Shown here: piece after piece, positions 30,781 to 38,706 of the stretch
Layout of the letters: every line of letters starts with the position of its first letter
Numbering within the stretch: the stretch's first letter is position 1
From: Thermococcus sp.
GTDB lineage: Archaea > Methanobacteriota_B > Thermococci > Thermococcales > Thermococcaceae
Direction: 5' to 3'
Assembly (NCBI RefSeq): GCF_027023865.1
Contig: NZ_JALVUC010000019.1
Span: 46,486 to 110,485, forward strand
Length of the DNA stretch: 64,000 bases
Notes under the pieces: model-generated
The model's database searches: none
What the model was told of the DNA's origin: nothing
What the model saw: only the letters and a program-made list of their open reading frames with translations
Program-made: the position numbers and the translations under genes

Positions 30781-31317
30781 ATGACGTCCAGGATAGCTGT
30801 GGGTCAAGTGGTCAAAAGGAAAGCAGTAATCGTCAAACCACATGATACGATACACAAGATCGCCAAAGTACTCTCCCGGAACAAGGCGGGGAGCGCTGTT
30901 GTGGTTAGCGGCGACGAAATAGTTGGGATAATCACCGACCGCGACATCCTCGACAAGGTTGTAGCGAAGGGACGCGACCCCAAGGCGGTCAAAGTTGAGG
31001 AGGTTATGACTAAGAACCCCGTAACCATCGAGGACGACTACGACGTGCAGGATGCCATAGACAGGATGATGGACAAGGGCATCAGAAGGCTTCTCGTCAC
31101 CAGACTCGGCAGACCGATAGGATTCGTTACGGCGGCGGATCTTCTGAGCGCACTGACAACACAGAACCAGGAGGAGCAGGAGGAAGAGTATCCTGAGGAA
31201 ACACCGGTTTACGGAATCTGCGAGCTGTGCGGACAGTACGGGCCCCTCTACAAGGTCTACATCGGCGGGGAGGAAAAGTGGGTGTGCGAGAGCTGTAAGG
31301 ACAGCCTCAACCTTTAG
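30781..31317 (+). CDS. CBS-pair protein with C-terminal zinc ribbon
   Basis: 178 residues. Two CBS motifs (VIVKPHDTIHKIAKVLSRNKAGSAVVV, then GIITDRDILDKVV; and PVTIEDDYDVQDAIDRMMDKGIRRLLV, then GFVTAADLL) form a Bateman module for adenosyl ligands (AMP, ATP, SAM). After an acidic linker, CELCGQYG and WVCESCKDSL form a CxxC/CxxC zinc site. It probably senses energy or SAM state and passes it to a partner. ATG 30781 has ggagaggtgg upstream. Its end overlaps the convergent THEP1 gene by 4 bp. Confidence 0.82.
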   Translation: MTSRIAVGQVVKRKAVIVKPHDTIHKIAKVLSRNKAGSAVVVSGDEIVGIITDRDILDKVVAKGRDPKAVKVEEVMTKNPVTIEDDYDVQDAIDRMMDKGIRRLLVTRLGRPIGFVTAADLLSALTTQNQEEQEEEYPEETPVYGICELCGQYGPLYKVYIGGEEKWVCESCKDSLNL

Positions 31318-31847
31318 CCCCTCAGTTCTTTCATAACCTCATCCAGGATTATCCCGAACTCAGCGTTTCTGTTCTCGACACTTAACGTATGGAGTTGTCC
31401 AAGTGGTCTGAATCTGTCCACAAAGTGCCTGTGAACGACCGCTAGAAGGGGCCTCTCCGACTTCAGGACTTCCCCGACGGCCCTGGCGAACTCGTCGCTC
31501 TTGTACTCCATCGGGCCTATCTCATCGATGACTATTAGATCAGCCTCGACCAAGGCACGCTTTATCGCCGGAACGGCAGCGCGCTCGATCTCGTCGACGT
31601 GGACGACGTACTTCCCGAATGGAACTCCAGGCAGGTGTGACGTTCCCCTAATGCTCGCGAGGATTCCCTCCTCCTCTGTGTCGAGGGAGGTGATTTTGAA
31701 CCCAACGCGCCTCCCATTCCTCCGCACTTCTTGTGTTATCATCCCGCCGACGATATAGCCCCAGCGGTCGGCTTCCTTCGCAATCCTCCCCACAAGGGTG
31801 GTCTTTCCAACACCGGCGGGGCCGGTCACGAATATTCTCAGCGCCAT
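31314..31847 (-). CDS. THEP1-family nucleoside-triphosphatase
   Basis: 177 residues. Walker A is VTGPAGVGKTTLVGRI (residues 7-22). GGMITQEVRRNGRRVGFKI, then ADLIVIDEIGPMEYKS (Walker B) and VVHRHF complete the THEP1/NTPCR (COG1618) pattern. It hydrolyses NTPs in vitro in family members; the cellular role is unknown. ATG 31847 follows ggtgagtgaa. The mtnA gene starts about 55 bp away in the other direction. Confidence 0.85.
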   Translation of the reverse strand: MALRIFVTGPAGVGKTTLVGRIAKEADRWGYIVGGMITQEVRRNGRRVGFKITSLDTEEEGILASIRGTSHLPGVPFGKYVVHVDEIERAAVPAIKRALVEADLIVIDEIGPMEYKSDEFARAVGEVLKSERPLLAVVHRHFVDRFRPLGQLHTLSVENRNAEFGIILDEVMKELRG

Positions 31848-31902
31848 TTCACTCACCGAAGGAGCTTTAAGCTCTCCCCTTAAACCCTTTGGGGTGATAG
31901 TG

Positions 31903-32970
31903 GTGGAGATGAAGTATAAACCAGAGGAACTCACGAGGCTTCCAAGGAGCGTTGAGTACGAGACGGGAAAGGTCATTATGATAGACCAGAGGCTCCTTCC
32001 AGGGGAGTTTAAGACGATAGAGCTGAGAACCGTCAATGAGGTCGCCGAGGCGATAGTCACGATGAAGGTTCGCGGTGCTCCTGCCATTGGAGCTGCAGCT
32101 GCCTTTGGCCTAGCCCTCTACGCGGACACGACAAAAGCCAAAACCAAGGACGAATTCATGGAGGGATTTTATTCAGCTTACGAGGGACTTAAGAACACTA
32201 GGCCAACCGCCGTGAACCTCTTCTGGGCGCTCAACAGGATTAAGAGCCTAGTGGAAGAAAATGCTGAAAGCCCGCTAGAAGAGATCAAGGAATTCATCGT
32301 GAACGAAGCCCGGAAAATAGCGGACGAGGACGTTGAGGCAAATCTGAGGATGGGTCACTACGGTGCTGAGGTTCTGCCCGAGGGAAACATCTTAACCCAC
32401 TGCAACGCCGGGAGCCTTGCCACGGTTCAGCTTGGCACGGTTGGCGCTGTGCTCAGAGTCATGCACCACGATGGAAACCTCAAGCTCCTCTGGGTGGACG
32501 AGACAAGACCGGTTCTCCAGGGTGCCAGGCTTTCAGCTTGGGAGTACCACTACGACGGCATTTCCCTTAAGCTTATAACAGACAACATGGCCGGCTTTGT
32601 TATGCAACAGGGGAGGGTGGATGCTATAATAGTCGGGGCCGACAGGATTGTCGCCAACGGCGACTTCGCCAACAAGATAGGAACCTACAGTTTGGCAGTC
32701 CTCGCGAGGGAGCACGGAATTCCCTTCTTCACAGTAGCTCCGTTATCAACGATAGACCTCTCCCTCAGAAGTGGGAGGGAGATACCAATAGAGGAGCGCA
32801 GGCCGGAGGAAGTCCTCACTTGCGGCGGCTGTAAGATTGCTCCGGATGTAGACGTCTACAACCCAGCGTTCGACGTTACACCGCACAAGTATCTAACTGG
32901 GATAATCACGGATCAGGGTGTTGTGTGGCCGCCGTTCGAGAGGAACTTGAAGAAGCTGTTTATGGGGTAG
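31903..32970 (+). CDS. mtnA: S-methyl-5-thioribose-1-phosphate isomerase (MtnA / aIF2B-like)
   Basis: About 355 residues. IELRTVNEVAEAIVTMKVRGAPAIGAAAAFGLAL, ILTHCNAGSLATVQLGTVGAVLR (catalytic Cys region), VDETRPVLQGARL, and VGADRIVANGDFANKIGTYSLAVLA (catalytic Asp) define the MtnA subgroup of the eIF2B-alpha/beta/delta superfamily. It acts in methylthioadenosine salvage; the archaeal enzyme works on methylthioribose-1-phosphate. I choose GTG 31903, which has ggggtgat 4 nt upstream and gives an N-terminus of the M-E-x-K-Y type seen in relatives; ATG 31909 is the alternative. Confidence 0.9.
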   Translation: MEMKYKPEELTRLPRSVEYETGKVIMIDQRLLPGEFKTIELRTVNEVAEAIVTMKVRGAPAIGAAAAFGLALYADTTKAKTKDEFMEGFYSAYEGLKNTRPTAVNLFWALNRIKSLVEENAESPLEEIKEFIVNEARKIADEDVEANLRMGHYGAEVLPEGNILTHCNAGSLATVQLGTVGAVLRVMHHDGNLKLLWVDETRPVLQGARLSAWEYHYDGISLKLITDNMAGFVMQQGRVDAIIVGADRIVANGDFANKIGTYSLAVLAREHGIPFFTVAPLSTIDLSLRSGREIPIEERRPEEVLTCGGCKIAPDVDVYNPAFDVTPHKYLTGIITDQGVVWPPFERNLKKLFMG

Positions 32971-33017: not shown

Positions 33018-33518
33018 TTAAAGCAGCTTCTCCATGATGATGGCCCTCTCTGAGTAACCCTTTTCGGAGTACCACTTCCTCGCGGGGTTGTTAACGTCAA
33101 CCCTTAGGGAGATTTTCATGGTACCCATCTTCCTTGCCCACTCCTCCGCCCGCTCAATGAGGGCACTTCCTATCCCAATCCCCGGAAAGAGCGTTTCGAT
33201 GTCATATATGTAAGCAGAAGGGACGAAGTCCACCGTGTCGATCTTCAGGCAGACCCACACGTGGCCGAGATAGCGTCCGTATTTGTCCACTGCCACGAAG
33301 AACTTGTGCTTCCCGGTGGCCAGGAGTCCCCTGATTACTCTACCGTAGTTCTCCTCATATTCTTCATGGCTCAACTGGAAGCGCGAGAATGAGCGGCTTA
33401 TCCCCATGTCGCTCTTAAATATCTCGTCAAGGTAGCTTTCGCCGTCAACGACGGTAAATTCTTCCGCGGTCTGCCTGATTGGAGGTAGCTCAGAGTGCCT
33501 TTTCTGTTTCTGAAACAC
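33018..33518 (-). CDS. GNAT-family N-acetyltransferase
   Basis: 166 residues. The acetyl-CoA-binding block is IYDIETLFPGIGIGSALIERAEEWARKMG (Q/RxxGxG/A-like, about residues 108-133), followed by ISLRVDVNNPARKWYSEKGYSERAIIMEKLL, the usual GNAT C-terminus. GTG 33518 overlaps the upstream PP-loop gene by 29 nt, so it is translated with it. Its substrate is unknown. In this cluster it may acetylate an amino acid or peptide product. Confidence 0.8.
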   Translation of the reverse strand: MFQKQKRHSELPPIRQTAEEFTVVDGESYLDEIFKSDMGISRSFSRFQLSHEEYEENYGRVIRGLLATGKHKFFVAVDKYGRYLGHVWVCLKIDTVDFVPSAYIYDIETLFPGIGIGSALIERAEEWARKMGTMKISLRVDVNNPARKWYSEKGYSERAIIMEKLL

Positions 33519-34953
33519 CGTTCATCGCCTCCTCGCGGGAGATTCTAACCCAGTGGTCACCTTTCAGGTAGGAATAGCCCTTCGTGTATGGTTCCAGCAA
33601 TCTGTATATCCCCCTGCGGAACTCTTCGGGGATTGCATCGAATCCGGAGTTCCTGCCGTCGAAGTGGAGCATCTCGACGTGCCAGCGGGGCTTCCCGTCG
33701 AGCGGGAAGTCAGGGAGGTGACGCTTTATAAGATAGAGGGAGTGCTCAAGCTCATCCTTATCCAGGCGGATTCTCCCTTCGCTTATGCGCTTGGCGAGGC
33801 CTTCAACGTGCTCGGGCTTGTACCGGATGAGCGTTGGGTCTATGCCGTTCGCGAGGAGAAACGTTAAGATGCCGTTGCACTTGAAGCACTTCCCGCAGGG
33901 GACGTAGTCCTCCCCCTCCCTGTGAACCGAGTGACAGCTCCTCTGGAGTTTGAAGAGCTCGGGATAGCGGTTATAGAGAACGCGCTCCACGATGAGACCG
34001 GTTATTGGTCTAACTGCCGACCACTGTCTTATCTTGAGACCCCTACCCTCGAACCAGCGCGTCATGTACCGCTCAAAGTCCCAGCTCTGGTCGTAGGTTG
34101 CGTAATAGTGGCGGATTCCGTTGTATTCATAGCTCAGCCCCCTCGGGTCGTCGTATTCGTTGCCGAAGAGGATGTTTCCAATCCCGTACTTGTAAATGAG
34201 TGGAAGGAATGCAAAGGAGTAGCCCGCGAAGAAGAACAGCCTTATCGGGTAGACCTCAGCCTTGGGTTTACCGACGTTCTGAAGGATCCTCATGTTCTTC
34301 TCTATGACGGTGTAGAGCCTGTCGGCGTTGCTCCAGACACTCCTCGTCCTTGGCTCGTTCCTCTCGAACCAGCGGTAGGAGGGGATTGCCACCCTCCAGT
34401 GGCCACCGGATTCGTTGTAAAAGAAGGGATAAACCTCACAACCGAGTTCTTTCATCATGCCGTAGGTGAGGAGGCTCTCCTTACCGCCAGAGAGCATCAC
34501 GGCACATTTCTTGTAGTCCGGCTCGAAGTCGATCGGTTCCTCCTCAACGCCTTCCGGGAAGAGCTTCGCCATAGGCTCGGCCATCTCCGGCGTTACCTCC
34601 TTTGGAATGTACTCCTCCCTGACGAAGCCCGTCCTTTGGACTATCCTGTTGACGAAGATGTCACGGGTCGTGACTTCCATCATATCCTGGAAGAACTTCA
34701 GGTCTCTCGGGTCGAGGGAGAAGTCAAAGCGTATCTCTGGCGTGAAGAGGCCGTAGTTTATGGCAGGGATTATGCTAACCAGCTTGGCGAAGGCTTTGAC
34801 CTTCGGGATTCTCTCATGGTAGCGGTGGATGAGGTCGTAACCCAACTCTTCACCGTCAATGCCTAGGACGTAGCGCGCCGAAACGCGCCTGCTCTCAATC
34901 CTCGGCTTTTCTACGAGGATGAAGTCAAAGCACTTCAGCTCCGGCAGGCTCAC
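33490..34953 (-). CDS. PP-loop ATP-pyrophosphatase-fold enzyme (MurL-like or QueC-like architecture)
   Basis: 487 residues. After a 150-residue N-terminal domain comes the PP-loop CAVMLSGGKESLLTYGMMKELG (SGGKES near residue 155), which binds ATP and releases pyrophosphate. Near 358-377, C-x12-CGKCFKC gives a four-Cys zinc-type site. The overall design recalls MurL, an ATP-dependent glutamate epimerase acting on UDP-MurNAc-Ala-Glu, and also QueC. The length and the linked DUF1611 gene favour the MurL-like reading, but archaea make no murein, so its substrate must differ. The GTG start (34953) overlaps the DUF1611 gene. This is one of the least understood genes of the window. Confidence 0.6.
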   Translation of the reverse strand: MSLPELKCFDFILVEKPRIESRRVSARYVLGIDGEELGYDLIHRYHERIPKVKAFAKLVSIIPAINYGLFTPEIRFDFSLDPRDLKFFQDMMEVTTRDIFVNRIVQRTGFVREEYIPKEVTPEMAEPMAKLFPEGVEEEPIDFEPDYKKCAVMLSGGKESLLTYGMMKELGCEVYPFFYNESGGHWRVAIPSYRWFERNEPRTRSVWSNADRLYTVIEKNMRILQNVGKPKAEVYPIRLFFFAGYSFAFLPLIYKYGIGNILFGNEYDDPRGLSYEYNGIRHYYATYDQSWDFERYMTRWFEGRGLKIRQWSAVRPITGLIVERVLYNRYPELFKLQRSCHSVHREGEDYVPCGKCFKCNGILTFLLANGIDPTLIRYKPEHVEGLAKRISEGRIRLDKDELEHSLYLIKRHLPDFPLDGKPRWHVEMLHFDGRNSGFDAIPEEFRRGIYRLLEPYTKGYSYLKGDHWVRISREEAMNGVSETEKAL

Positions 34954-36016
34954 TCGCCCTCACCTCTCCAAGTTCCTTCGCTTTGCTCGCTATCAGTCTG
35001 GATATATCCTCGACGCCCTGGTAGAACGGGACGCGCGTCAGGATTCCAGTCTCGCTCTCTATCCTCTCGGCCCATTCGAGGGCCTCCTCCTTCGTGAGGT
35101 TCTGGGTGTTTATCGTAATCGCCACGGGGGGCTTCCGGGAGAGGAGCTCTATCACTTTAATGTAGTTCTCAAGCGGTGGTATCCTATACTGGGGGAAGTC
35201 GTCGAAGACCACTCTTCCCGGTGCATGTTGAAGGACGATGAAGTCGGGCCTGCCGGCACTGATGAGCTCAAAGCCGCCTGGAAACGCCGGATGAAGGAGC
35301 GAGCCCTCGCCGTGGGTGACTATTACGTCGGGTCTCTCCTCTTCCCAGGCGCGGTAGAAGACGTCCTCAATGGCCCCCGCAACGAAGTCGTTGATGATGG
35401 AGTCCGTGACTATGCAGTACTTGAAGCCCTGCATCCAGCCGGTCTGACCCATGGCTATGAACTCGCTCTTCAGGCCGAGGTTCCTGAAGGCCTCGTGGAG
35501 CATAATAGCGGTCGTTCTCTTCCCTATCGCCGCGTCCGTTCCGAGGACGGTAACCTTAGCCGCTTTAACGTCCTCTATCTTCCCGGTGAAGGGAATCCTG
35601 AGGTTGTAGAATATCTTCCTGACGTCGATTATCTCGACCCCGCTCTGTCTCGCGAGGCGCTTAAGGTAGGGGTCGTCGCTGAGGAAGTGGTGGAGACCGT
35701 TGACGACTCCAAGCCCGGACTTGATGGCCTTCACCACTATTTTCTTGTAACTCGAGGGAAGAACACCGCCCGGTGTGGCGACGCCTATGATGAGCCACTT
35801 CGCATCGGGGTTCTCCAGGAGGGCCTCCTCGAGGGTCCCGTATACGGGAATGCCCCTCCTTATCCCGTCGAGCACTTCCCCCGCGTCCCGTCCAGCCAAG
35901 GTGGAGTCTATCAGGCCTGCTATCTTATACCTTCCCGAGTACCGCACGAGTCCGTGCGCTGTTTTTCCATCCGTCGTAAGATAACGCCCCTCCGTAAGCA
36001 CCAAAGCCTTTTCCAC
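34925..36016 (-). CDS. DUF1611 P-loop protein (DgcN-like)
   Basis: About 363 residues. A Rossmann-type N-terminal half (YKIAGLIDSTLAGRDAGEVLDGIRRGIPVYGTLEEAL, then WLIIGVATPGGVLP) is followed by a P-loop-like VTVLGTDAAIGKRTTAIMLHEAFRNLGL and VIVTHGEGSLLHPAF. DUF1611 proteins occur with dipeptide-epimerase genes in bacteria, and one branch (DgcN) N-acetylates D-glutamate. GTG 36016 has ggaggtg 6 nt upstream. It overlaps both neighbours, so the cluster is tightly coupled. A role in D-amino-acid or isopeptide metabolism is inference. Confidence 0.72.
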   Translation of the reverse strand: MEKALVLTEGRYLTTDGKTAHGLVRYSGRYKIAGLIDSTLAGRDAGEVLDGIRRGIPVYGTLEEALLENPDAKWLIIGVATPGGVLPSSYKKIVVKAIKSGLGVVNGLHHFLSDDPYLKRLARQSGVEIIDVRKIFYNLRIPFTGKIEDVKAAKVTVLGTDAAIGKRTTAIMLHEAFRNLGLKSEFIAMGQTGWMQGFKYCIVTDSIINDFVAGAIEDVFYRAWEEERPDVIVTHGEGSLLHPAFPGGFELISAGRPDFIVLQHAPGRVVFDDFPQYRIPPLENYIKVIELLSRKPPVAITINTQNLTKEEALEWAERIESETGILTRVPFYQGVEDISRLIASKAKELGEVRASEPAGAEVL

Positions 36017-36914
36017 CGTGGACACCTCCGGTTAGTACCAACACGAAGTTTCCCCTCCAGATCCCAAACTTCCGAACGAACTTGATCAGGCCTGCAACAG
36101 TTAGGGCCGAGGCAGACAAAACCGAAAGGTCTGTCGTAGCGCGGAGCAGCTCGGCGCATCTCATGGCAGTATCGTCGGCGAAGCCGAAGACGTAGCCGTC
36201 GGACTCTTTTAGGGCTTTCATCGCCTCGTTGAGGTCGAAGCAGGTTTCAGAAACGAGCGGTTCGTTGACCGGTGTCTCCGCTATCTCCCTCCTCGAATCG
36301 CCGTAGAACTCCCAGAGGAGCTGGTTGCCTAGGGACGTTGTGACACCCACCATCCTTGGCTTAGCCTTCCCGCGGAAGCCGTGCCAGATTCCCGCTAGGG
36401 TGGTGCCGTTCCCGACGGGGACGAACACCGCATCAGGCTTCACTTCACGGAGGATATCTTCTGCTATCGATGAATAGCCTGCATAATCGATCTCGGGATG
36501 ACTTCCTGGGTTTGCGTCGTAGATGCCATTTGCCATCGCAAAGCGCCTGCTCTCCCTTACGGCGTCCTCATACGTCCCCGGCCAGGGGATCACCTCCGCA
36601 CCGAGGGCCTTCATCTCGCCGGCCCGTTCAAGGGTGTAGCCGGCCGGCACAAAAACGAAAGCCTTCAGGCCGTAGAGCCGTGCGTAGTAAGCGATGGAAA
36701 CACCGTAGTTCCCGCAGGTGCCCACGGTAACGGCAGAATAGCCCTCCCTGATGGCTTTTTCCACGTGAGCTCTGGCGATTCTGTCCTTGTGGGTTCCCGT
36801 CGGGTTTCTGCCCTCGTAGTCTATGTAGATCTGCTCAACCCCCAGGGCCTCCTCCAGGAGAGGGGCCCTTATGAGGGGGCCGCCATCATCATCGGAGTTC
36901 TTTTCGGCCTCCAT
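35925..36914 (-). CDS. Threonine-synthase-like PLP enzyme (fold type II)
   Basis: About 329 residues. The PLP-Lys block is EGRNPTGTHKDRIARAHVE. TVGTCGNYGVSIAYYARLYGLKAFVFVPAG binds the phosphate, and VPVGNGTTLAGIW and VLTGGVHGGKG follow. The family includes threonine synthase, cysteate synthase and diaminopropionate-type enzymes, and the substrate cannot be told. ATG 36914 has ggtgg upstream and a TATA-like tgtataac about 40 bp further up. A longer TTG start (36983) has codons (CGA, CGG, CAA) unlike the rest. The C-terminus overlaps DUF1611 by about 90 bp, unusually long, and may run past the original stop. Confidence 0.75.
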   Translation of the reverse strand: MEAEKNSDDDGGPLIRAPLLEEALGVEQIYIDYEGRNPTGTHKDRIARAHVEKAIREGYSAVTVGTCGNYGVSIAYYARLYGLKAFVFVPAGYTLERAGEMKALGAEVIPWPGTYEDAVRESRRFAMANGIYDANPGSHPEIDYAGYSSIAEDILREVKPDAVFVPVGNGTTLAGIWHGFRGKAKPRMVGVTTSLGNQLLWEFYGDSRREIAETPVNEPLVSETCFDLNEAMKALKESDGYVFGFADDTAMRCAELLRATTDLSVLSASALTVAGLIKFVRKFGIWRGNFVLVLTGGVHGGKGFGAYGGALSYDGWKNSARTRAVLGKV

Positions 36915-37168
36915 TTTCGGCCACCAGACCCGTTGTTTTCGTCCAAACTCAGTTATACAGTACTTTTCTTTCGTGCCATCCAATTTACTCCCTTCATTTT
37001 TGGAGGGAAGTCAACTGGAGTTTCTCAGGGGTATATAAATCTTTCTCCCAGGTGGGGCTGTTATCCACGCCTAACATTTATCTCTGCCCCTAAAATCATT
37101 AGGAAACCGAGTTATTGCCGTGAATTTGAGCAGAAAAGTTTTTAAACCCATTATACGCTCAATGAACG

Positions 37169-37195: not shown

Positions 37196-37369
37196 ATGTA
37201 CTACCCGCCAAAGAAGAAGGTCCAGCCAAAGAAGGTTGAGGAAGAAAAGGAAGAGGAGTTCGAGCCCCTCGACACCGTTGAAGAGGCCTACGAGGACTGG
37301 GACGAGGAAGAGGACTGGGACGAAGAGGAAGAAGACTGGGAAGACGAGGACTGGGATGACGAAGACTGA
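37196..37369 (+). CDS. Small highly acidic protein rich in Glu, Asp and Trp
   Basis: 57 residues: a basic start (MYYPPKKKVQPKK) followed by an almost purely acidic part with repeated DWDEEE/EDWE units; five Trp lie among the acids. No fold is apparent. ATG 37196 follows ggaggtggt at good distance, a TATA-like tttttaaacc lies about 55 bp upstream, and T6 follows the stop, so it is a proper single-gene unit. Possible roles: a protein or metal chaperone or a DNA mimic. Confidence 0.65.
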   Translation: MYYPPKKKVQPKKVEEEKEEEFEPLDTVEEAYEDWDEEEDWDEEEEDWEDEDWDDED

Positions 37370-37437: not shown

Positions 37438-38706
37438 TTGAGGGGCTGCCCGCAGAAGAGAAAAAGGACAACCCTTAAAACCCTGGAGAAAGGGCGGCAG
37501 ATGAAGCACAGGCCCTACCCGGGAAGGTGGTTCTATTCCTTCGTCCCGTTTAAGATTTCAACCGGCGGGGCCGCTCCGTTAATCCCACTCCTCACGATGA
37601 ACGTAGGCGGTGGTCCGGCCGAGGTTGGTGTTGTGAACGCAATAGGAAGCACCGCCTCGATGCTCGGTGGCCTCTTCTGGGGCAGGCTAAGTGATAGATT
37701 GAATAGGAGAAAGGTCTTTCTCCTCACAGGATTTCTTGGCACGGCGTTAACATCCATCTTATTCGCCCTTGCAAAGACCGTTCCCCAGGTGATGCTTGTA
37801 AATGCACTTTACACGTTCTTCATAGCAGCCACCATACCCGTCCCAATTCTCATAATAACCAAGGCGTTTCGTCTTGAGGACTGGGACTACGCCATTGGAA
37901 GGTTCAACGAGATAGGCGGCTGGGCATGGGTTACGGGAATGGTTCTCGGGCTAATGATGGCCCAGTTCCTAAACTTGAGGGATATATTCGTGGTTCTGGG
38001 GATCGTCGGCTTGTTCTCCCTCCCATGGGGGGTAAAGACGATAAAAGAAGTCCCCCTGCACATTGACAGGCGGGTTCTTGGGATGTACACCGGATACGTC
38101 ATTGAAAAGTTCAGGTATCTACCCAACATGATAACCCACCTGCCGAGGTTTTCCTCGGAGGGCTTTGGGAGGCTCTATCTTTCGACGATCCTTTTCTGGA
38201 TTGGGGCCATGTTCTACTTCACCCAGTTTCCAGTTCTGTTGAAAAGCAGGGGGTTGGGTGCGACTGAGCTTTACGTCATGAGTATTGCAAACTCTGCGGT
38301 TTCAGCTTATATGTACACCCGCGTGGGATTAAAGCTGAGAAAGACGGGCGGTTACGGTGCGCTTAAGAGGGGTCTGATCTTAAGGGGAGCATCCTTTCTC
38401 CTGCTGGCGGTGTCAACAATCCTAGAAGAAGATCCTTTTCTTGTTCTGGCCTTTGTCTCATACTTCATAGCCGGATACACGTGGTCTTACATAAGCGTCT
38501 CAACGTCCTCAATAATATCCCATCGAGCACCGCCGGAAAAGCGTGGATCCTTGATAGGCACTTACAATCTCATCAGCTCTCTGGGTGCCATAATTGGCAA
38601 TTTAATAAGCGGATTGATAGTTGAGGGGCTGGGGTTTACCTTAGACTTTGCACTCGCCTCACTGATGGTATTTCTGGCCCTGGCCCCCATCTTCCGCGAA
38701 CGTTAA
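37438..38706 (+). CDS. MFS transporter, 12-helix type
   Basis: About 400-422 residues with about 12 hydrophobic helices. GRLSDRLNRRKVFLLTG (after helix 2) is the MFS signature loop (GxLxDRxxRR), and RAPPEKRGSLIGTYNLISSLGAIIGNLISG is its counterpart in the second half. The substrate is unknown; relatives are multidrug or sugar exporters. TTG 37438 has a strong ggggtgaag site and a TATA (ctttttaaac, about 37396-37405) at the right distance. ATG 37501 is a possible shorter start with a poor site. The Fe-ADH gene follows after 34 bp. Confidence 0.8.
   Translation: MRGCPQKRKRTTLKTLEKGRQMKHRPYPGRWFYSFVPFKISTGGAAPLIPLLTMNVGGGPAEVGVVNAIGSTASMLGGLFWGRLSDRLNRRKVFLLTGFLGTALTSILFALAKTVPQVMLVNALYTFFIAATIPVPILIITKAFRLEDWDYAIGRFNEIGGWAWVTGMVLGLMMAQFLNLRDIFVVLGIVGLFSLPWGVKTIKEVPLHIDRRVLGMYTGYVIEKFRYLPNMITHLPRFSSEGFGRLYLSTILFWIGAMFYFTQFPVLLKSRGLGATELYVMSIANSAVSAYMYTRVGLKLRKTGGYGALKRGLILRGASFLLLAVSTILEEDPFLVLAFVSYFIAGYTWSYISVSTSSIISHRAPPEKRGSLIGTYNLISSLGAIIGNLISGLIVEGLGFTLDFALASLMVFLALAPIFRER

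Follow-up and report, generated by a model that had tools for sequence, protein, structure and literature searches.

A 64,000-nucleotide stretch of DNA from Thermococcus sp. (contig NZ_JALVUC010000019.1, positions 46,486 to 110,485; hereafter the window) carries on its minus strand, at 33018-36914, a cluster of four genes that overlap end to start and are transcribed in the order PALP, DUF1611, PP-loop, GNAT. The four genes form one co-inherited unit, which is acquired and lost as a whole within the Thermococcaceae, and the PALP, DUF1611 and PP-loop genes remain associated in several groups of archaea and in Desulfobacterota. From its PP-loop signature, the fold that it has in common with QueC, QatC and Cap9, and the sequence that it has in common with MurL, we strongly infer that the PP-loop protein is an ATP-binding enzyme that activates a carboxylate by adenylation, converting ATP to AMP and pyrophosphate (PPi). 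Our best explanation of the cluster, tentatively held, is a single dedicated small-molecule pathway with this activation step, in which the PP-loop enzyme would most likely carry out a one-way epimerisation by analogy with MurL; the substrate is best read as an amino acid or dipeptide with a stereocentre.

In bacteria, MurD2 and MurL act as a pair, with L-Glu being added and then inverted (PMC5808125, PMC8788868), and MurL, described only for bacterial murein synthesis, is according to its discoverers the first epimerase with ATP as co-substrate. Since a distant MurL relative lies at the core of the conserved unit reported here, archaea that have no bacterial cell wall may possess a so far unrecognised pathway for mirror-image amino acids or dipeptides. 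A wider proposal, which we consider somewhat unlikely, is that archaea free of murein and pseudomurein (Thermococcales, Korarchaeum-like, Thermoplasmatales-like and small-genome lineages) possess an ancient pathway independent of murein, where enzymes of the MurL superfamily, together with Ddl-like ligases or with DUF1611, pyridoxal 5'-phosphate (PLP) enzymes and GNAT proteins, make D-amino acids or dipeptides by ATP-driven one-way epimerisation; if this were true, bacterial MurL would be a specialised member of a wider MurL superfamily. Our literature search, confined to open-access papers and incomplete, found no paper joining MurL, archaea and 'glutamate epimerase', and the surveys of the QueC family and of pseudomurein within it are silent on MurL. 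The conserved MurL-related family of archaea and bacteria, with its links to DUF1611, a PLP enzyme, acetyltransferases and Ddl-like enzymes, offers a concrete gene set with which to approach the metabolism of D-amino acids or unusual dipeptides in archaea, places PALP genes named PRK06381 'threonine synthase' and many DUF1611 genes in a pathway context, and is a source of thermostable proteins for the structural study of a mechanism with no solved structure that we could find.

Co-inheritance of the four genes

The cluster opens with PALP (35925-36914, minus strand; ATG start at 36914, 329 aa), a fold-type II PLP enzyme that is threonine-synthase-like (PRK06381 type). It is followed by the gene of a DUF1611 protein (34925-36025, minus strand; 366 aa), a relative of DgcN with a Rossmann-like N-terminal domain and a P-loop C-terminal domain (GTDAAIGKRTTA), then by that of the PP-loop protein (33490-34953, minus strand; 487 aa), from a QueC/MurL-like superfamily family without a Pfam model, and last by that of a GNAT acetyltransferase (33018-33518, minus strand; 166 aa; PF00583, 3e-8). 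The initial annotation had described four overlapping genes, and all four open reading frames (ORFs) were confirmed, with overlaps of 101 nt (PALP/DUF1611), 29 nt (DUF1611/PP-loop) and 29 nt (PP-loop/GNAT). They are not chance ORFs, because in all pairwise comparisons of the four genes with four relatives the nonsynonymous divergence (dN) was 4-14x below the synonymous divergence (dS), by the Nei-Gojobori method with dS partly saturated. Pfam identifies PALP, DUF1611_N with DUF1611_C, and GNAT among the cluster products, and no Pfam or NCBIfam family matched the PP-loop protein of the window.

That the genes serve one pathway, as had been proposed from their overlaps, agrees with how they are inherited. 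A lack of co-conservation, named in the initial annotation as a ground for refuting its proposal, was not observed. Among 37 genomes of the genus, several of the compared genomes being metagenome-assembled genomes, the PP-loop gene occurs in 13 and DUF1611 in the identical 13 (Fisher p 3e-10, a statistic that ignores phylogeny), and a PALP orthologue (>=60% identity) occurs in 12 of those 13, the contig of the 13th stopping within DUF1611. Order and overlaps of the quartet are identical in every locus of the genus with sufficient sequence, the order being kept in 11 further Thermococcus loci and also in sister genera, and in most Thermococcus loci the quartet is flanked by mtnA and an iron alcohol dehydrogenase (Fe-ADH) gene. 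An empty site is seen in a quartet-less congener (L111), where mtnA is followed directly by a small ORF, a major facilitator superfamily (MFS) gene and Fe-ADH. The gene set is present in two further Thermococcaceae genera, and remnants of the PP-loop gene persist in a third. In one genome (G075; L064 8187-12644) all four genes and the MFS gene are broken, and mtnA, purB and Fe-ADH are intact. The G075 locus and that of G113, described below, constitute a natural decay series.

Among 396 archaeal relatives searched by profile, members of the PP-loop family turned up in two families besides the Thermococcaceae. The full quartet, in unchanged order, is present in all five genomes of a Korarchaeum-like lineage (f20/g27; L129-L133), with identities to the window of 42-45% for PALP, 52-55% for DUF1611, 49-50% for PP-loop and 33-36% for the retained GNAT orthologue, so that gene order is kept in a distant archaeal family. 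The second family (f68, four genomes), which may be Thermoplasmatales-like, has the trio PALP-DUF1611-PP-loop without GNAT. Pairwise identities of the three families correlate with r 0.89-0.94, where the pairs are non-independent and p values mean little. In the DUF1611 tree, all PP-loop and MurL-like contexts fall in one clade (97/96), apart from the racemase-linked DUF1611 genes.

Outside the archaea, a search of 395 Desulfobacterota genomes found clear members of the PP-loop family in seven, G118 counted, and in six of these the PP-loop domain is fused to, or continues into, a domain of the creatininase family. Where the contig permits, PALP and DUF1611 are found upstream of the PP-loop gene (L078, L079, L080, L082, L083), GNAT is missing from this version of the cluster, and an enolase-superfamily dipeptide epimerase adjoins the PP-loop gene in L078, L081, L082 and L083. 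A DxD motif is a mark of dipeptide epimerases. Alignment to 1jpm and among the four Desulfobacterota loci shows that their epimerase keeps the catalytic set KxK, D, E, D, K together with the C-terminal DxD, and the metal ligands EQH, D, H, E of the creatininase domain appear intact. At L078 7909-10287 and in its homologues, a PP-loop domain of the MurL superfamily is joined to an amidohydrolase domain of the creatininase family, with a dipeptide epimerase next to it. A Syntrophobacterales locus (L029) has its PP-loop gene unfused, with an overlapping GNAT gene from a different Pfam subfamily, and its genome gave no DUF1611 match. No match was obtained on plasmids by tblastn with three PP-loop/MurL-like proteins, and viral contigs yielded no relative.

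Family and fold of the PP-loop protein

We assign the window protein to a new family within the QueC/QatC/MurL-like PP-loop superfamily, nearer by sequence to MurL than to QueC; by the equivalog criterion it is not classed as a MurL. Fourteen diverse members of its family (A8) share 44 invariant positions, including S155, G156, G157, K158 and S160 of the PP-loop (ATP pyrophosphatase) motif SGGKES (residues 155-160; 34474-34491, minus strand) and all four cysteines of a probably Zn-binding site that includes CGKC (C340-x12-C353-x2-C356-x2-C359; 33877-33936, minus strand). None of the 14 matched Pfam at 0.01, PF06508 included, and five matched the MurL model NF041275 (best E 5.6e-6). A second, more distant family (A7; ~450 residues; L138-L145 and L084) connects the first with MurL, all ten of its members matching NF041275 (best 6e-9; first member 34 bits), and nine of the ten have the same four-Cys pattern. 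Profile comparison of the two families by hhalign gave a probability of 99.8 and an E of 7e-29 for 296 columns over the catalytic half, and the motifs GK[DE]S, G[ND]E and DQ[ST] are common to both, as is the four-Cys pattern, which is what membership in the MurL superfamily entails. Since NF041275 was silent in all 14 control genomes, every one of which has PF06508 matches, these MurL matches are not generic QueC matches; over 297 Desulfobacterota, the model matched only one distant protein (G200). The resemblance to MurL noted in the initial annotation stands for the family, and the position of the window protein itself is weighed below.

A firm grouping with QueC was not found. The host genome (G000, 1.92 Mb) has a separate canonical QueC elsewhere (199 bits), the window protein is absent from that genome's PF06508 matches even at E<=1, and hhalign of the A8 family against this QueC gave a probability of 8%, although a single-sequence template makes this a weak control. 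The QueC motifs YxQxHxxE, VPxRN, YPDC and C-x8-C-x2-C-x2-C, as defined in PMC13329287, occur in 0/14 family members, as does the QatC motif D-x4-R-x7-W-x-R.

The comparison with solved structures gives a different ranking and brings in the main rival to an epimerase. A sequence search of the PDB with the window protein returned no match, and the AlphaFold models of the A8 and A7 proteins are both confident (predicted local distance difference test score, pLDDT, 91; window protein, AF2). The initial annotation had suggested comparing the protein with MurL and QueC; for both models the best solved match was QatC, over nearly the full length, followed by QueC and Cap9. No solved MurL structure was found in the PDB search, so the fold search cannot return MurL, and the low Foldseek TM-scores of 0.35-0.40 point to a shared architecture and not to close kinship. 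The window protein has in common with QatC, QueC and Cap9 (PMC13279940, PMC13329287) the PP-loop and a four-Cys site in the C-terminal half, and this site and the DQS motif align with the Zn site of QueC and its DNTPEF region. A PP-loop enzyme of the QueC, Cap9 or (as proposed) QatC kind would adenylate a carboxylate for attack by an amine, giving an amide or conjugate with no epimerisation, and the pathway would yield an amidated, acetylated amino-acid derivative; the fusion of a bacterial homologue to a creatininase-family amidohydrolase would fit such amide or lactam chemistry. We nevertheless regard this chief alternative as rather unlikely, given the missing QueC and QatC motifs, the failure of PF06508 to recognise the window protein, the closeness in sequence to MurL, whose structure the fold search could not have returned, and the surroundings of the gene, with no qat or preQ0/deazaguanine genes near the cluster and no PADLOC match to QatC. 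An anti-phage (qat) function was rejected on the negative PADLOC search.

The PALP and DUF1611 proteins

The window PALP (Pfam PALP, 8e-55) passes the PRK06381 threonine synthase model NF004996 with 364 bits against a cut-off of 266 and can be aligned with PDB threonine synthases; its PLP lysine in NPTGTHKDR and the TCGNYG loop are invariant. No conserved Arg is seen at the aligned 1uim position, where the alignment is gapped. We take this Arg of the Thermus threonine synthase to bind the phosphate of O-phosphohomoserine; with the Arg apparently unconserved, and with five other PALP paralogues in the host genome, the name 'threonine synthase' is doubtful.

The DUF1611 protein has both domains of its family, with 217 bits for PF07755 (1.9e-64; cut-off 25) and 108 bits for PF17396 (4e-31; cut-off 22.6), and solved relatives are 2g0t, 2obn and 7xrj. 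It shares its fold family with DgcN of the DgcN/DgcA D-glutamate pathway (NF041892/NF042940), the function of DgcN being taken here from the NCBIfam name and from a citing paper (PMC12363236), and the Desulfobacterota operon likewise contains an enolase-superfamily epimerase. The archaeal clusters differ in lacking DgcA and in their additional PALP, PP-loop and GNAT genes. The link of DUF1611 to D-glutamate acetylation and dipeptide epimerisation, on which the initial annotation had drawn, finds support in the contexts of other members of the family, which stand beside racemases, dipeptide epimerases and DgcA, and does not extend to the window protein as a DgcN, which scores 164 bits against an equivalog cut-off of 480, with no DgcA in the cluster.

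Stereochemistry-linked gene contexts

The surroundings of related genes suggest chemistry at a stereocentre. In two archaeal loci (L066, L067) DUF1611 is adjacent or close to an alanine/ornithine-type racemase gene, and on plasmids of Aliiroseovarius, Vibrio and Ruegeria (L104, L105, L106) it adjoins a gene of the alanine/ornithine racemase family. Elsewhere DUF1611 lies beside a dipeptide epimerase (Haloprofundus), beside DgcA (Klebsiella and Enterobacter plasmids) or with an ATP-binding cassette (ABC) transporter operon; two distant DUF1611 genes have no racemase, epimerase or DgcA partner. The pairing of DUF1611 with an alanine/ornithine racemase, seen in bacteria and archaea, is apparently distinct from dgcN-dgcA.

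Several of the MurL-like genes have comparable partners. One overlaps a DUF1611 gene (L145). In a 3-Mb archaeal genome (L142 6751-10768) a MurL-like gene, a Ddl-like ATP-grasp gene and a GNAT gene stand in a row, the end of which is overlapped by a converging PALP gene, and in a small-genome archaeon (L138 7913-11719) two tandem MurL-like genes accompany a D-Ala-D-Ala-ligase-like ATP-grasp gene, possibly a peptide-making and epimerising operon. The remaining MurL-like loci have no DUF1611, ligase-like, GNAT or PALP partner next door. The linkage of a MurL-like gene to an amino-acid ligase in L138 and L142 resembles the bacterial MurD2/MurL pair (PMC5808125, PMC8788868). The window protein is like MurL in its superfamily by profile comparison, through linking MurL-like proteins that all match the MurL model, and in the ATP/AMP chemistry expected of it; it differs in partners, which are DUF1611, PALP and GNAT instead of MurD2, in a host without murein, and in an N-terminal part that could not be aligned by profile. 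No MurD2-type ligase partner is present in the window cluster, and the Ddl-like ATP-grasp genes were seen only beside the distant MurL-like genes.

A proposed pathway and its alternatives

In the epimerisation pathway that we favour, the PP-loop enzyme would act on the C-terminal residue of a small peptide or N-acyl amino acid. Adenylation would render the alpha carbon of this residue acidic, and the enzyme would invert it from L to D and hydrolyse the adenylate, making the epimerisation one-way and ATP-driven. The DUF1611 protein, as kin of DgcN, could acylate, or process in some other way, a D-configured acidic or amide amino acid; PALP, by beta-replacement or elimination, could provide or remodel the amino acid used as building block; and GNAT could cap an amine by acetylation. 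In Desulfobacterota, without GNAT, the dipeptide epimerase and the creatininase-type hydrolase may take part instead.

Several results weigh against this pathway. The window PP-loop protein itself gives no NF041275 match and no A8 or A7 member comes near the equivalog cut-off of 700 bits. The nearest solved folds, QatC, QueC and Cap9, are tied to amide-type or ligation products, which makes epimerisation one of at least two live readings. Desulfobacterota have both the PP-loop protein and a separate dipeptide epimerase, so the former need not be an epimerase there, and the Thermococcus cluster shows no peptide ligase. Finally, in G113 (L061 6726-7058) PALP has a large internal deletion while DUF1611, PP-loop and GNAT are intact, and PALP is therefore not always required.

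The same genes could instead serve scavenging, with D-amino acids or D-dipeptides, for example from bacterial murein, imported by the MFS transporter and converted to L-forms, as DgcN/DgcA do for D-glutamate. The kinship of DUF1611 with DgcN, the contexts of other DUF1611 genes with DgcA, a dipeptide epimerase or an ABC transporter operon, and a patchy gain and loss that suits a nutritional trait would all fit; we consider it doubtful, however, as the DgcN score is weak, MurL, the sole known ATP-spending epimerase, works from L to D, and the transporter is loosely linked. The divergent MFS gene of the window (37438-38706, plus strand) has an orthologue in 8/9 quartet genomes vs 6/19 without the quartet (p 0.013, uncorrected) and adjoins most Thermococcaceae clusters, but no transporter of this kind neighbours the Korarchaeum-like clusters. 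As the gene is found also in quartet-less genomes, it was rejected as a fixed member of the unit.

This imperfect linkage bears equally on the idea that PALP is the key enzyme and, in the manner of SbnA-type enzymes, makes an unusual amino acid or a compound resembling an opine. After acylation and activation of its carboxyl group, this product would leave the cell through the MFS transporter to serve in signalling, osmotic balance or metal binding, with stereochemistry not central. The leading position of PALP in the operon, its conservation as part of the trio and the MFS association would fit; yet PALP is the most often damaged member (G113 and others), and the repeated occurrence of racemase, epimerase and Ddl-like partners would be left unexplained, which makes this reading quite improbable. 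Least credible of all is a role of the PP-loop protein in tRNA modification or in the archaeosine pathway, with incidental neighbours, for although many PP-loop proteins modify tRNA and the Foldseek tail includes TtuA, ThiI and TilS, the genome has its own canonical QueC, PF06508 does not recognise the window protein, the distribution is patchy with repeated loss, and the linkage to metabolic genes is strict across archaeal groups and Desulfobacterota.

Neighbouring features

A TATA-box-like sequence, TTTATATA (37032-37039, minus strand), lies ~120 nt upstream of the PALP ATG and is, from sequence, a candidate promoter of the cluster. Further upstream, at 37196-37369 (plus strand), is an unlisted 57-aa ORF (MYYPPKKKVQPKK...DWDEEEEDWEDEDWDDED) with a long Asp/Glu/Trp tail, which is conserved upstream of the MFS gene at the Thermococcaceae quartet loci and in four quartet-less genomes. 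This acidic ORF was considered as the peptide substrate of the cluster, given its Asp/Glu-rich tail beside a possible Glu epimerase, and was rejected, since it adjoins the MFS gene in those four genomes. On the other side of the cluster, an NTPase gene (31314-32087, minus strand) and mtnA (31798-32970, plus strand) overlap at their 5' ends under longest-ORF calls, and their real starts are probably internal.

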